Of a stretch of 53,980 bases of DNA, positions 5,882-51,334 are shown piece by piece. Numbering within the stretch: the stretch's first letter is position 1; each line of letters opens with the position of its first letter. Location of the stretch: assembly GCA_013204345.1 (NCBI GenBank), contig JABMOB010000002.1, positions 1-53,980 on the forward strand, written 5' to 3'. Below the pieces are notes generated by a model. That model worked only from the letters and a program-made list of their open reading frames with translations, was not told where the DNA came from and made no database searches. The position numbers and the translations under genes are program-made. The stretch comes from Parcubacteria group bacterium. GTDB taxonomy: Bacteria; Patescibacteriota; Minisyncoccia; Phycocordibacterales; JABMOB01.

Positions 5882-6102
5882 TATAGAAATAAGGAGCTAC
5901 GGCGACTATTTTTCTAAGAAACCCTGTTAAATAGTTTTTAAATAATAATTTAAAAACTAACATTTGATAAAAAGCAGAAAATAAGTAATATTATAAGGCC
6001 TAGAAAGTTTCAAAGGGAAGGAATATGGTTCTTAAATAACATCAAATGTTATTTAACAGGGTCATTATTTTCTAAAACTCGCTACGCTCGTTAAGAAAAT
6101 AT
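5882..6102 (+). repeat. spacer element copy A (long, promoter-bearing) between infC and rpmI
   Basis: P1 5922-5932/6051-6061; P2 5933-5943/5948-5958; P3 5959-5968/6041-6050; no unpaired junction bases; flanking 3' hairpin ATTTTCTAAAACTCGCTACGCTCGTTAAGAAAAT. Confidence 0.85.
5964..5991 (+). promoter_or_regulatory. putative promoter for rpmI-rplT nested in element A
   Basis: TTGATA (5964-5969) - 16 bp - TAATAT (5986-5991). Confidence 0.6.
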
Positions 6103-12555: not shown

Positions 12556-12570
12556 GAAATTTTTTTCTTC

Positions 12571-12616
12571 TACTTTCGACTTTACTTTATAGACTTTACG
12601 GACTTTACAGGCTTTC
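12571..12616 (-). repeat. AAAGTCCNT-type short tandem repeat upstream of secY
   Basis: + strand ctttcgactttactttatagactttacggactttacaggctttcgg. Confidence 0.65.
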
Positions 12617-12618
12617 GG

Positions 12619-13059
12619 CTATTGTATCGTTCCCCCCGCTTTCTCTATTTTTTCTTTCGCTTTAGTGGAAAGTGCGCACCCAGAAACTACAACTTTTTTA
12701 CTGATTTCCCCGCCAGAAAGAATTTTTACTTTAGGAAATTTACCTTTTTTTATCGAAATTAACCCCTTTTCTACTAAAATCTTTGGACTAATCTTTTCTC
12801 CATCTCCAAAAGCTTTTTCTATCACAGAAAGTGAAATTACTTCAAATTTTTCTTGGATAGTTCGAAGCCCAGCAATACCACGACCACGAAGTTTTGGAAT
12901 TCTTTTTATAAAATCTCTGATTTCTGGACGAGTGTTATGTCCAGCACGAGCAGTCTGACCTTTCCCTCCACGTCCAGATGTTTTTCCACGCGTACCACCA
13001 CGTCCAACCATTTTGGATTTTTTATTTTTTGTTTTTCTTTTTAAATTATGGAATTGCAT
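12619..13059 (-). CDS. rplO: ribosomal protein L15
   Basis: RKTKNKKSKMVGRGGTRGKTSGRGGKGQTARAG. Confidence 0.95.
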   Translation of the reverse strand: MQFHNLKRKTKNKKSKMVGRGGTRGKTSGRGGKGQTARAGHNTRPEIRDFIKRIPKLRGRGIAGLRTIQEKFEVISLSVIEKAFGDGEKISPKILVEKGLISIKKGKFPKVKILSGGEISKKVVVSGCALSTKAKEKIEKAGGTIQ

Positions 13060-13084
13060 GTTTTGAATTTTTATATTTTGTTTT

Positions 13085-13120
13085 TACTTTAAGGACTTTA
13101 CGGACTTTGGACTTTGGACT
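13085..13120 (-). repeat. AAAGTCCNT-type short tandem repeat upstream of rplO
   Basis: + strand tactttaaggactttacggactttggactttggact. Confidence 0.65.
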
Positions 13121-14173: not shown

Positions 14174-14186
14174 TGAATTTTATTTT

Positions 14187-14217
14187 GTCTTTACTTTATG
14201 GACTTTATGGACTTTCG
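14187..14217 (-). repeat. AAAGTCCNT-type short tandem repeat upstream of rplR
   Basis: + strand tctttactttatggactttatggactttcgg. Confidence 0.65.
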
Positions 14218-14241
14218 GCTAGACATAGTCGGCACGGCCGA

Positions 14242-14816: not shown

Positions 14817-14873
14817 CCCTGTTAAATCCCGCCTTGCGGGATCATTCGTTGGTACGAATGATATTTAACAGGG
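14817..14873 (-). repeat. spacer element copy F (short, no promoter) between rpsH and rplF
   Basis: CCCTGTTAAAT + CCCGC-CTT-GCGGG + ATCATTCGT-TGGT-ACGAATGAT + ATTTAACAGGG; no unpaired junction bases. Confidence 0.85.
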
Positions 14874-14934
14874 TAGTGTTTTGCATCCACACTTTGAAGT
14901 TCGCAAGCAAACTCCAAAGTGTGGGCACAAGCCA

Positions 14935-15324
14935 CTACCATATTCTAAACAAAACCTCACCCCCAACGTTTTCTTTTTTAGCTTGCTTATCACCCATAAT
15001 ACCTTTTGGAGTCGTCAAAACGAGCATACCAAACCCTTGCTTCACTTTCTTTATATCCTTAGCTTTGTGATAAACCCTTCTTGAAAATTTAGAAACTCTT
15101 TCTGCTCCCTTTATTCTTGACATACCATCTTCATAAATAAGGCCAATCTCAATAAGATTTGTGATTTTTTTGCCTTTTTTTGTGACATCTTTCAAATAAC
15201 CTTCTTTTTGCAAAAGTTCAGCTATAGCGAGCTTGAGTTTTGAGTACGGCAAAAGCAAAGACTCCTTTTCGGCTTCTCCTGCATTCTTTATTCGTGTTAT
15301 CATATCCGCGATTGGATCGTTCAT
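14935..15324 (-). CDS. rpsH: ribosomal protein S8
   Basis: NDPIADMITRIKNAGEAEKESLLLPYSKLKLAIAELLQKEGYL ... GGEVLFRIW. Confidence 0.95.
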   Translation of the reverse strand: MNDPIADMITRIKNAGEAEKESLLLPYSKLKLAIAELLQKEGYLKDVTKKGKKITNLIEIGLIYEDGMSRIKGAERVSKFSRRVYHKAKDIKKVKQGFGMLVLTTPKGIMGDKQAKKENVGGEVLFRIW

Positions 15325-29091: not shown

Positions 29092-29212
29092 GAGTCACCT
29101 CCTTTCTTTGTTTGATTAGTTGGTTGAAATTGCCTGAAACGGCTTCAAAGGACACGAAAATCACACTGACTTTCTACTTTTTATTCTATACTATTTCCCC
29201 CAAAAAGTCAAG
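29092..29212 (-). promoter_or_regulatory. promoter plus structured leader, copy 1
   Basis: TTGACT-N17-TAGAAT, conserved hairpin region CAGTGTGATTTTC, AACAAAGAAAGGAGG; homologous to 35351-35470. Confidence 0.75.
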
Positions 29213-35350: not shown

Positions 35351-35470
35351 AGAAACCTCCTTTCTTTGTTTGGTTGAAATTGCTCGAAACGTCGGGAATA
35401 GATTCAAAGAGCCTGAAAATCACACTGATTTTCTACTCCTTATTCTATACTATTTTCCCCCCAAAGTCAA
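35351..35470 (-). promoter_or_regulatory. promoter plus structured leader, copy 2
   Basis: TTGACT-N17-TAGAAT, GAAAATCAGTGTGATTTTC hairpin, AACAAAGAAAGGAGG. Confidence 0.75.
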
Positions 35471-43328: not shown

Positions 43329-43542
43329 ATATTTTCTTAACGAGCAAAGCGAGTTTTAGAAAATAATGACCCTGTTAAATAACATTTGATGTTATATGGG
43401 CAAAATCTTCTATTCTCTCTGTACTCTTTGTATATTACATATTACTCATTATTAGTTTTTTATCAAATGTTAGTTTTTAAATAATAATTTAAAAACTATT
43501 TAACGGGGTGTGAACATTATAGTCGCTCCGCTCCTTAATGTT
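43329..43542 (-). repeat. spacer element copy B (long, promoter-bearing) between rplN and rplX
   Basis: P1 43370-43380/43498-43508; P3 43381-43390/43462-43471; P2 43472-43482/43487-43497. One P1 position is G.U-like on the + strand and C.A on the minus strand. Confidence 0.85.
43439..43466 (-). promoter_or_regulatory. putative rplX promoter nested in element B
   Basis: Minus strand TTGATA-N16-TAATAT. Confidence 0.6.
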
Positions 43543-43914
43543 CTACACTACTTCTGGGGCTTTAGAAATTATTGTTTGGAAACCTAATTCTGCAATTTCT
43601 CTAGGAATAGGACCGAAGATTCTACCTGCGATAGGTTCATTTTTCTCTTTTTCTAAAATAACAACAGCATTTTCATCAAAACGAATGTACGAACCGTCTT
43701 TCCTTCGAAAAGGAACTTTTTGTCGAACCACAACGGCACGTAAAACATCTTTCTTTTTTACTGTTTTTCTAGGTTGAGCTTTTTGAACAGACAAAATAAC
43801 AAAATCTCCAATACGAGCATATCTCTTTTTTGAACTACCAAGAACCTTAAAAACCCTACCGATAGTTCCTCCAGAGTTGTCAGATATTTTTACAATAGAT
43901 TGTGGTTGAATCAT
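43543..43914 (-). CDS. rplN: ribosomal protein L14
   Basis: MIQPQSIVKISDNSGGTIGRVFKVLGSSKKRYARIGDFVILSV. Confidence 0.96.
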   Translation of the reverse strand: MIQPQSIVKISDNSGGTIGRVFKVLGSSKKRYARIGDFVILSVQKAQPRKTVKKKDVLRAVVVRQKVPFRRKDGSYIRFDENAVVILEKEKNEPIAGRIFGPIPREIAELGFQTIISKAPEVV

Positions 43915-45603: not shown

Positions 45604-46029
45604 TTATGAATTATCAATTTTAGCTTTTGATTCTTTTTTCGAAGCTGTTTTTGTTTTTGAATCTGACTTTACAGACTTTACAGACTTTGCACTTTCGACT
45701 CTCGGTTCGAGCACGACCGAGATATGGCTTGTTCTCTTGCGCATAGGATGAGCTCGTCCACGAGATGCTGGAAGCCTTCTATATAAAATAGATCCGCCAT
45801 CTACTCTAATTTCTTTTATAAAAAGATTTGAAATATCAATATTTAAATTTTTTGCGTTTGAAACAGCTGATTCTATAAGACACTTCAGCGGAAGACCCGC
45901 TTTTTTGTCCAGAAATTTTAGAGACTGAATCGCAACATCAACTTTTTTCCCTCTAACAAAATTGGCAACAACACGAACTTTTCGCGGAGAGTGTCTATAA
46001 TTTTGCAATGTTGCTGTAGCTGTGCTCAT
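45604..46029 (-). CDS. rplV: ribosomal protein L22 with repeat-derived C-terminal extension
   Basis: ATLQNYRHSPRKVRVVANFVRGKKVDVAIQSL ... GRAHPMRKRTSHISVVLEPR; C-terminus SAKSVKSVKSDSKTK. Confidence 0.94.
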   Translation of the reverse strand: MSTATATLQNYRHSPRKVRVVANFVRGKKVDVAIQSLKFLDKKAGLPLKCLIESAVSNAKNLNIDISNLFIKEIRVDGGSILYRRLPASRGRAHPMRKRTSHISVVLEPRVESAKSVKSVKSDSKTKTASKKESKAKIDNS

Positions 46030-47372: not shown

Positions 47373-47582
47373 GGATTTTCTTAACGAGCATAGCGAGTTT
47401 TAGAAAATAATGACCCTGTTAAATAACATTTGATTGTTATATGGGTAAAATATTCTATTATCCTCATACTCTGTGCGTGTTACATATTACTTATTTTTGG
47501 TTTTTTATCAAATGTTAGTTTTAAATTGCTATTTAAAACTATTTAACAGGGTGAGTAAAATATAATCACTCTGTTCCTTATT
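47373..47582 (-). repeat. spacer element copy C (long, promoter-bearing) between rplW and rplB
   Basis: P1 47414-47424/47541-47551; P3 47425-47434/47507-47516; P2 47517-47526/47531-47540. Confidence 0.85.
47484..47511 (-). promoter_or_regulatory. putative rplB promoter nested in element C
   Basis: Minus strand TTGATA-N16-TAATAT. Confidence 0.6.
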
Positions 47583-47975
47583 TTACACCACCTCAATTTT
47601 ATCCTCTTTTTTCAAATAAACGTACGCTTTTTTTATACCTGACTTTGTACCACGCTTGCCTCTTACAAAAACACTCTTCTTGGGTGTATTTACAATATTT
47701 ACACGTACAGGAGTTACTTTATACATTTCGTGGACAGCTTGTGCAACAGATTTTTTATTTGCCTTTTTTGTAACCTCAAACACATGTACGTTTTCTGACT
47801 CAGATTTAAACGACGCTTTTTCAGTAATACGTGGACGAATAATAACAGTCTCTGTTCGACTTTTGACAGTAGCTGTAGATTCTACAACTGTAGGTTTTGA
47901 CGCCACAACAGCAACTTCTTTTACTTCTTTAACCACGTCAGCCTTTGTATTCTTTTTTCTTCCTAAAAGTGCCAT
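47583..47975 (-). CDS. rplW: ribosomal protein L23
   Basis: VIIRPRITEKASFKSESENVHVFEVTKKANKKSVAQAVHEMYKVTPVRVNIVN. Confidence 0.94.
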   Translation of the reverse strand: MALLGRKKNTKADVVKEVKEVAVVASKPTVVESTATVKSRTETVIIRPRITEKASFKSESENVHVFEVTKKANKKSVAQAVHEMYKVTPVRVNIVNTPKKSVFVRGKRGTKSGIKKAYVYLKKEDKIEVV

Positions 47976-49380: not shown

Positions 49381-49593
49381 GTGATTGATTTTAAAGGAAT
49401 GTAATGACTATTAAAATCATCACCCTGTTAAATAACATTTGATTGTTACAACAGGAGTGCATTCCTCTTACATAACCGTAAGTCCTACATACTACTTATT
49501 TTTGATTTTTAATCAAATGTTGATTTTAAATTATTATTTAAAATCATTTAACAGGGTAACTAAAAACATAGTCGCTCCGCTCCTTGTTTTTGC
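49381..49593 (-). repeat. spacer element copy D (long, promoter-bearing) between rpsJ and rplC
   Basis: P1 49423-49433/49546-49556; P3 49434-49444/49511-49521; P2 49522-49531/49536-49545. Confidence 0.85.
49489..49516 (-). promoter_or_regulatory. putative rplC promoter nested in element D
   Basis: Minus strand TTGATT-N16-TAGTAT. Confidence 0.55.
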
Positions 49594-50001
49594 TTACATT
49601 ATCTTCACGTCTATATTTACCCCAGACGGTAAACTCAAATTTGTGAGTGATTCAATGATCTTTTGACTAGGGTTCAATATATCAATCAACCTCTTGTGGA
49701 TTCTCATCTCAAATTGTTCTCGCGCATTTTTGTAGACGAAAGCAGAGCGATTAACTGTATATTTTTTAATACTAGTAGGAAGAGGTATCGGACCAAGAAC
49801 CTTGGCATCATACCGAAGGGCTGTGTCGATTATTTGCTTCACAGATAAATCAAGTATTTTGTACTCATATGCCTGAACACGTATACGAAGTTTTGAAATA
49901 CCCTCCTCTTTTGAGACGGTTTTCACTTTTTTGACACGCGGCGCCTTTGCTCGTACTGAGCCTGTCGAAGTATCTTTTTTTGTTATAGTTTCTTCAGCCA
50001 T
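49594..50001 (-). CDS. rpsJ: ribosomal protein S10
   Basis: KLRIRVQAYEYKILDLSVKQIIDTALRYDAKVLGPIPLPTSIKKYTVNRSAFVYKNAREQFEMRIHKRLIDIL. Confidence 0.96.
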   Translation of the reverse strand: MAEETITKKDTSTGSVRAKAPRVKKVKTVSKEEGISKLRIRVQAYEYKILDLSVKQIIDTALRYDAKVLGPIPLPTSIKKYTVNRSAFVYKNAREQFEMRIHKRLIDILNPSQKIIESLTNLSLPSGVNIDVKIM

Positions 50002-50134
50002 GATTGATTTTAAAGGAATGTAATGACTATTAAAATCATCACCCTGTTAAATCCCGCCTCGCGGGATCATTTGCTGGTGCAAATGATATTTAACAGGGTA
50101 AGGAAATTATAGTCGCTACGCTCGTTAATTTTCC
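50002..50134 (-). repeat. spacer element copy E (short, no promoter) between tuf and rpsJ
   Basis: P1 50042-50052/50088-50098; CCCGC hairpin 50053-50065; ATCATTTGC-TGGT-GCAAATGAT 50066-50087; no unpaired junction bases. Confidence 0.88.
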
Positions 50135-51334
50135 TTACGCCGTAATTTTTGTAACAACTCCGGCACCGACAGTTTTACCTCCCTCTCGTATAGCAAATCG
50201 CATCTTTTCTTCCATAGCTACAGGAGCGACAAGCTTAACTTTGAATGTAATTGTGTCTCCAGGCATAACCATTTCAACTTTTTCAGGAAGAGTCACATCT
50301 CCAGTAACATCCGTTGTTCTAATATAGAACTGTGGTTTGTAACCAGTAAAGAATGGAGTGTGTCGTCCACCCTCTTCTTTCTTCAAAACGTAAACTTCTG
50401 CATCAAAGTCTGTGTGAGGAGTAACGGATCCTGGTTTTGCCAAAACCTGCCCTCGATGAATTTCTTCTTTTTTTGCACCTCGGAGCAAAATTCCGGCGTT
50501 ATCTCCAGCCATACCTTCTGACAAAGATTTGTTAAACATTTCAATACCTGTAACTGTAGTTTTTGTTGTGGGTTTGATACCAACAATCTCGATATCTTCA
50601 CCGACCTTAATTCGCCCTCTTTCAATTCTTCCTGTAACAACAGTTCCTCGTCCTTCAATAGAGAAAATGTCTTCAACCGGCATAAGAAATGGCTTATCTA
50701 GGTCTCTTTCTGGTATAGGAACATATGTGTCCAAAGCATCCACTAATTCAAGGATTTTCTTTGACCATTCGTCATCATTATCCTTAGATTCAAGAGCTTT
50801 CAGAGCTGAACCTCGAATAACAGGAGCTGTTTCACCTTCAAAACCTTGTTTAGTCAAAAGCTCTCGAACTTCTTCTTCAACCAAGTCAATAAGCTCCTTA
50901 TCAGGAACCATATCGCATTTGTTTAGGAAAACGAGTACTTTTGGCACACCAATCTGTCTAGCCAATAGAATATGCTCTCGAGTCTGTGGCATAACACCGT
51001 CAGTAGCGGCAACAACCAAGATTGCACCGTCCATTTGAGCAGCACCGGTGATCATGTTTTTAATATAGTCTGCGTGACCTGGGGCATCAATGTGCGCATA
51101 GTGACGAGCATCTGAAGAATACTCGTTGTGAGAAAGGGCAATGGTAATACCTCTTGCCTTCTCTTCTGGGGCTGAGTCAATCTGATCAACTCCTTTAATT
51201 TTTACATCCTTACCCGCTCTCTGCAATACACTCAAGATTGCGGCGGTTAAAGTAGTCTTACCATGGTCAACGTGGCCGATTGTACCGACGTTAACGTGTG
51301 GCTTTGACCTATCGAAAACTGTTGCTTCTGCCAT
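50135..51334 (-). CDS. tuf: elongation factor Tu
   Basis: [21 protein letters not shown] ... [13 protein letters not shown] ... [33 protein letters not shown]. Confidence 0.97.

Follow-up and report, generated by a model that had tools for sequence, protein, structure and literature searches.

Gene-less copies of a putative GIY-YIG mobile element, folded as a three-helix junction, carry a promoter-like block before ribosomal-protein genes

The window, which is the whole 53,980-nt stretch of DNA analysed here, holds six copies of an element, each in the spacer that precedes the start codon of a ribosomal-protein gene (genes by Pfam assignment); five belong to the tuf-S10-spc region and the sixth to infC-rpmI. 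Each copy is built from three helices, P1, P2 and P3, which form a three-helix junction with zero unpaired bases and of which P1 joins both ends of the element. The rplC copy is laid out below part by part, followed by the other five; C40 denotes a gene-bearing copy elsewhere in this genome.

49387..49418, minus strand: rplC copy, flanking hairpin on the 3' side, GATTTTAATAGTC...CCTTTAAAATC, found again unchanged in the rpsJ copy and at C40
49422..49433, minus strand: P1 3' arm, coding in gene-bearing copies for the final residues YLTG and for the beginning of the stop codon
49434..49444, minus strand: P3 3' arm
49445..49510, minus strand: P3 loop, containing the spacer and -10-like hexamer
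49489..49494, minus strand: -10-like hexamer TAGTAT
49511..49516, minus strand: -35-like hexamer TTGATT, within the P3 5' arm
49511..49521, minus strand: P3 5' arm
49522..49545, minus strand: P2 hairpin
49546..49557, minus strand: P1 5' arm
49562..49591, minus strand: 5' flanking hairpin, immediately 3' of the rpsJ stop codon
47375..47585, minus strand: rplB copy (long); 5' hairpin 47556-47585, 3' hairpin 47375-47408; P1 47541-47552/47413-47424, P2 47517-47540, P3 47507-47516/47425-47434
43331..43543, minus strand: rplX copy (long); 5' hairpin 43512-43543, 3' hairpin 43331-43364; P1 43498-43509/43369-43380, P2 43472-43497, P3 43462-43471/43381-43390
5885..6100, plus strand: rpmI copy (long); 5' hairpin 5885-5915, 3' hairpin 6067-6100; P1 5921-5932/6051-6062, P2 5933-5958, P3 5959-5968/6041-6050
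50006..50136, minus strand: rpsJ copy (short, tuf-rpsJ spacer); 5' hairpin 50100-50136, 3' hairpin 50006-50037; P1 50088-50099/50041-50052, P2 50066-50087, P3 50053-50065
14817..14873, minus strand: rplF copy (short, rpsH-rplF spacer); P1 14863-14873/14817-14827, P2 14841-14862, P3 14828-14840

Folding as single-stranded DNA recovers the junction in all six copies, with z values of -4.7 to -9.2. Many copies in Patescibacteria have an extra hairpin on each side, the two being mutually inverted with GAGC-type cores; these flanking hairpins occur at many sites, not all, and hairpin-free copies exist. The 52-nt 3' end, comprising hairpin and P1 arm, is identical in the long rplC copy (49382-49433) and the short rpsJ copy (50001-50052), as if parts had been exchanged or recently copied. 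Given this identity and the recurrence of the 3' hairpin at the gene-bearing C40, the hairpin seems to travel with the element. The window also contains a 66-nt near-perfect inverted repeat (14873-14938) directly adjoining the short rplF element, a further dispersed repeat, ~100 nt long (29110-29211 and 35360-35470, 76-85% alike), short GACTTTA-unit repeats located between genes or at gene ends (12569-12620, 13071-13113, 14178-14220 and 45651-45693) and a tmRNA gene on the minus strand (2472-2878; Rfam RF00023).

Pattern and DNA searches located about 15 copies in this genome, dispersed at unrelated sites: one gene-bearing, seven long with a P3 loop of 70-77 nt, and six short ones whose hairpins are tiny; in the remaining copy, C30:3594, it is the P2 loop that is large. 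The gene-less copies have their ends and cis structure in common with C40 and are multiple and dispersed, as expected of MITE-like derivatives. Copies often sit just before start codons, here including those of ribosomal-protein operons; the downstream gene is on the same strand in 68 cases against 10 and lies within 40 nt in 37 of 83. The rpsJ-rplC spacer is free of the element in all 28 same-order genomes in which rpsJ lies beside rplC, and in each of 12 genomes outside Patescibacteria the P3/P1 3' arm pattern matched 0-2 times. A TATAAT is found a few nucleotides before the 5' P1 arm at three loci (L017, at C41:17011; L011, at C30:3594; and L022), a position from which a host transcript would start almost exactly at the first base of the element.

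An earlier note on this DNA had proposed a promoter nested inside P3 of the long copies. The hexamer pairs on which it was based are found, with exactly 16 nt between them, at all four of its positions in the window, and two further long copies elsewhere in the genome carry the same strict block.

5964-5991, plus strand: promoter-like block of the rpmI copy, TTGATW-16-TARTAT
43439-43466, minus strand: promoter-like block of the rplX copy, TTGATW-16-TARTAT
47484-47511, minus strand: promoter-like block of the rplB copy, TTGATW-16-TARTAT
49489-49516, minus strand: promoter-like block of the rplC copy, TTGATT-16-TAGTAT
C25:10852-10879 and C34:1374-1401: strict blocks of two long copies outside the window

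In all four window copies the block is directed at the downstream gene, and the overlap of the -35-like hexamer with the P3 5' arm is borne out by the coordinates (49511..49516 within 49511..49521 at rplC). The pattern TTGATW-N16-TARTAT has 4 matches in the window against 0.09 expected in shuffles, and 6 in the 756-kb genome, every one within a long element; the seventh long copy (C41) has TTGACG-15-TAATAT instead. The note was also right that the block is kept while the other loop sequence diverges: mean pairwise identity across the six copies is 0.90 for the -35, 0.83 for the spacer and 0.91 for the -10 (0.83-0.91 for the block), and 0.91-1.00 for the P3 arms, against 0.48 for the remaining loop. 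Because the copies are homologous, the constant spacing counts as one inherited feature and not as four independent ones. Family-wide conservation of P3 (ATTTGA/TCAAAT) for pairing accounts for the TTGA of the "-35", and the same pairing is kept in copies where P3 encodes Arg-Phe-Glu of a nuclease. The P3 arm supplies the -35 half; the -10 half lies in loop sequence that six copies have inherited. In this genome the -10 block is better kept than other loop sequence, which a pure relic would not need.

The origin of the loop was examined from several sides. No nuclease-gene homology is detectable in the P3 loop of the rplC copy; when the block was considered as a degenerate remnant of that gene, the arms matched and the loop interior did not (nhmmer; global alignment against shuffles), so such an origin is rejected for the -10 half. 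Since the loop is not detectably derived from the gene, an internal deletion is not demonstrated for the long copies. A captured rpsC start was likewise discarded, as the single 36-nt match (92%, in G298 at L184) is attributable to chance and the rpsC start of this genome is unlike the loop, and so was a mini-reading frame, short frames being present in some G012 and G357 copies and inconsistent in this genome.

The gene-bearing copy (C40:19642-19925) contains an intact 84-codon GIY-YIG gene inside the same P1, P2 and P3, such that the full element of ~284 nt encodes one 84-aa nuclease. Its P1 arms, ACCCTGTTAAAT and ATTTAACAGGGT, are as in the window copies, and the 3' arm codes for the end of the protein (TCT TAT TTA ACA GGG TGA, Ser-Tyr-Leu-Thr-Gly-stop). 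In P2, the leader sequence AATTTTAAATT pairs with AATTTAAAATT, which provides the NLK codons (codons about 22-25); in P3, AAGATTTGAGC (RFE) pairs with GCTCAAATCTT (RLKS), bringing together codons about 26-28 and 78-80. Single-strand DNA folding of this element gives a z of -3.6. The protein matches PF01541 (E 7.8e-18), retains intact catalytic residues (the invariant positions being Y5, Y16, G18, R26, H30 and E62) and yields an AlphaFold model with a pLDDT of 93.5, to which the nearest solved folds are UPF0213 BH0048 and the Slx1-Slx4 "branched DNA" structures; 1ZG2 and 1YWL were also matched by sequence. The latter, a UPF0213 protein, serves as an Slx-1 structure in PMC1564403. With its domain and catalytic residues in place, the protein is, on this predicted fold, a UPF0213/Slx1-like GIY-YIG nuclease. 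A phage or plasmid origin of the gene was sought and set aside (none in plasmids, one weak phage record and six weak viral contigs).

About 80 relatives from several phyla share this anatomy, with an intact 84-aa GIY-YIG gene threaded through the helices; those at 65-76% identity come from Patescibacteria, Desulfobacterota, Bacteroidota, Planctomycetota, Ignavibacteria, Cloacimonadota and others. Covariation was assessed in 81 distinct gene-bearing elements against 500 shuffles. The three helices contain 2558 Watson-Crick cells, and in 231 cells both partners have changed; the shuffles reach at most 2235 and 64, respectively. At P1-8 the pairs are TA57, GC15 and CG8, and a Leu-to-Phe change in P1 (YLTG to YFTG) is accompanied by the matching change in the leader. 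P2 offers the cleanest case, as one of its arms is untranslated leader and the other consists of codons: P2-2 has AT49, GC22, CG4 and TA2, P2-6 has TA46, CG15, GC14 and AT3, and P2-3 has TA54 and CG18 with T.G or C.A intermediates absent. These counts show that compensatory changes preserve the fold in about 80 elements across several phyla, and part of the perfect pairing could reflect inter-arm repair instead of selection. A tree of the nuclease does not serve to establish horizontal spread, since its 84 columns resolve too little and the 15 label changes are compatible with a single origin per group. Sister GIY-YIG sub-families (L029-L031, L033, L036 and L042) similarly pair the leader with the last codons, for example TCCCGTTAGAGA with TCTCTAACGGGA, so a gene threaded through its own helices may be a more general design. 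The 3' end of a more distant GIY-YIG gene, L032, extends into a tRNA gene, which suggests a different insertion habit in that sub-family.

The pairs themselves bear on whether the fold is one of RNA or of DNA. Among 2268 core helix cells (helix ends and P1-5 excluded), G.T occurs 16 times (0.7%) and A.C 12 times. By way of comparison, tRNA stems at the same loci have 25 G.U in 388 pairs (6.4%), a control biased toward G.U because ARAGORN draws standard pairs only; the even ratio of G.T to A.C stands apart from this biased control. Selection on the RNA would be expected to tolerate G.U but not A.C. That G.T is as rare as A.C argues for selection on DNA, as a single strand or an extruded branch, rather than on RNA, and the base-pair rules of these sequences fit DNA better.

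Long gene-less copies were recovered from five genomes (G000, G012, G151, G357 and G200; L217-L234) by a search that allowed P3 loops of 58-88 nt, in which a G053 match proved to be a different fold. Their P3 loops measure 67-77 nt, a fixed length class that holds despite unrelated sequence. In the four genomes other than this one, which belong to the same order, 11 such copies keep P1, P2, P3 and the loop length, and none has the strict hexamer pair; one of them, G357d, has a comparable TTGACG-16-TAGTAT, which is within chance. The -10 hexamer is not reliably kept among these 11, so that conservation of the hexamers in independent copies was not found in them. The expectation that hexamers and spacing would recur in further copies was therefore borne out within this genome, in two of three further long copies, and failed outside it. 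The TTGATW-16-TARTAT block belongs to the particular sub-family of this genome and does not define the element. A conserved function of the block within the element is not supported, its TTGA being explained by P3 pairing and the strict pair being absent from the long copies of the four other genomes.

Could the block nevertheless act as a sigma-70 promoter that supplies the downstream ribosomal genes with a second, shorter leader? Its hexamers lie near the -35 and -10 consensus at a spacing of 16, within the 16-18 nt range, scoring 9/12 in the rplB and rplX copies and 8/12 in the rplC copy; six of the seven long copies have the exact hexamers and spacing, their identity exceeds that of the remaining loop, and the orientation is always toward the downstream gene. 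Such scores appear ordinary for AT-rich loops of this kind, however: the surrounding 10 kb has 37 sites of at least 9/12 compared with 23.7 in shuffles, and loop shuffles with the -35 anchored in P3 reach an equal site score in 6-18% of trials. The evidence moreover comes from a single homologous sub-family of one genome, with the strict pair missing from the 11 copies of G012, G151, G357 and G200 (G357d alone being comparable), and in the C41 and C30:3594 copies a consensus TATAAT is already in place immediately before P1. A nested promoter is thus doubtful. A transcript starting at the block would lack the 5' arms of P1 and P3, as the note had it, and would lack P2 entirely rather than its 5' half. 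The proposed contrast between read-through and newly initiated mRNAs with different leaders loses part of its basis, because helices nearly without G.U argue against a folded-leader role of the RNA.

The same scarcity weighs on a structured RNA leader, in which the elements would be ribosomal-protein cis-regulators or transcript-processing sites acting on read-through mRNA. Their location in 5' leaders, their co-directionality and their strong fold would suit such a role; G.U is no commoner than A.C, however, the junction has no unpaired nucleotides, the tmRNA is the only Rfam match in the window, and the elements precede many unrelated genes and are missing from the same spacer in 28 relatives, so that this explanation is very improbable. 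Homing, in which the GIY-YIG nuclease would cut empty sites and the element be copied by repair with the helices as incidental inverted repeats, draws on the classic homing nuclease fold of GIY-YIG, on the location of the gene inside the element and on a weak TIGR01453 match under its cut-off. Copies are spread over many unrelated sites with no single allelic target, the UPF0213 and Slx1 folds are nearer than I-TevI, and incidental repeats would not show leader-codon covariation across phyla, all of which makes homing unlikely.

We favour, with a probability of about three in four, the reading that the long elements descend from a GIY-YIG mobile element as MITE-like copies that lack its gene and have inserted between genes for ribosomal proteins. 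P1, P2 and P3 are common to the gene-less window copies and the gene-bearing C40, and the two forms therefore have a common fold. Mobility is inferred from copy number, patchy occurrence and unrelated neighbour genes; no excision or transposition event and no precise pair of empty and filled sites was seen. The nuclease would recognise the branched DNA that forms when the element is single-stranded or extruded, and would cut there, mobilising the element, while gene-less copies would move in trans. The GIY-YIG nuclease ANKLE1 cuts branched DNA (PMC10287932), as does SLX1, another of this group (PMC8287910); splayed Y, cruciform or flap DNA are the substrates given for the two. By analogy, the branched DNA of the element is probably the substrate of its nuclease. 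Copies occupy ribosomal-protein spacers in reduced Patescibacteria genomes and so must be tolerated or used there.

Among known systems, the UPF0213/Slx1-like nucleases (1ZG2, 1YWL; Slx1-Slx4) match the C40 protein in domain, invariant residues and predicted fold. Here, in contrast, the gene lies inside an inverted-repeat element, and the protein is single-domain, with no room for the extra C-terminal domain of Slx1. The nearest published hint of the element is a report of sparse, non-site-specific GIY-YIG genes in non-intron insertions of CPR (Patescibacteria) rRNA genes, the text of which mentions no hairpins or inverted repeats (PMC11270868). A search of an open-access library turned up no account of GIY-YIG elements built on a three-way junction, and the family is apparently both widespread and undescribed. 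Group I introns with GIY-YIG genes and HEARO/IscB likewise link a nuclease gene to a structured nucleic acid, whereas the present elements are intergenic, have DNA-like pairing and give no match to an intron or other such Rfam RNA in the window.

REP/RAYT and IS200/IS605 systems combine a small nuclease gene and hairpin ends with many gene-less, palindromic intergenic copies. The element differs from them in encoding a GIY-YIG protein where an HUH (Y1) transposase would be expected, in having junction arms that overlap the gene and in pairing its two ends together. MITEs and the Correia (CREE), NEMIS, ERIC and BOX/RUP repeats are short, non-coding inverted-repeat intergenic copies, and Correia copies can carry promoters; unlike these, the present repeats have a matching gene-bearing partner, both within their own genome and across many phyla, and fold as a three-way junction. 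Codons that also keep three DNA helices, including pairing of leader with reading frame, across several phyla represent a rare overlapping constraint. The system also suggests that a nuclease fold for branched DNA, known chiefly from repair enzymes, can drive a minimal mobile element. It is possible, and we lean slightly against it, that this is a new class of mobile DNA in which a single tiny Slx1-like nuclease gene is written through the very DNA three-way junction that its product acts on, gene-less junctions having multiplied in Patescibacteria and one sub-family possibly supplying promoters to ribosomal-protein operons. By its behaviour, the system is a variant of the small element accompanied by gene-less repeats, and it would become a new class if the junction proves to be the substrate of the nuclease.
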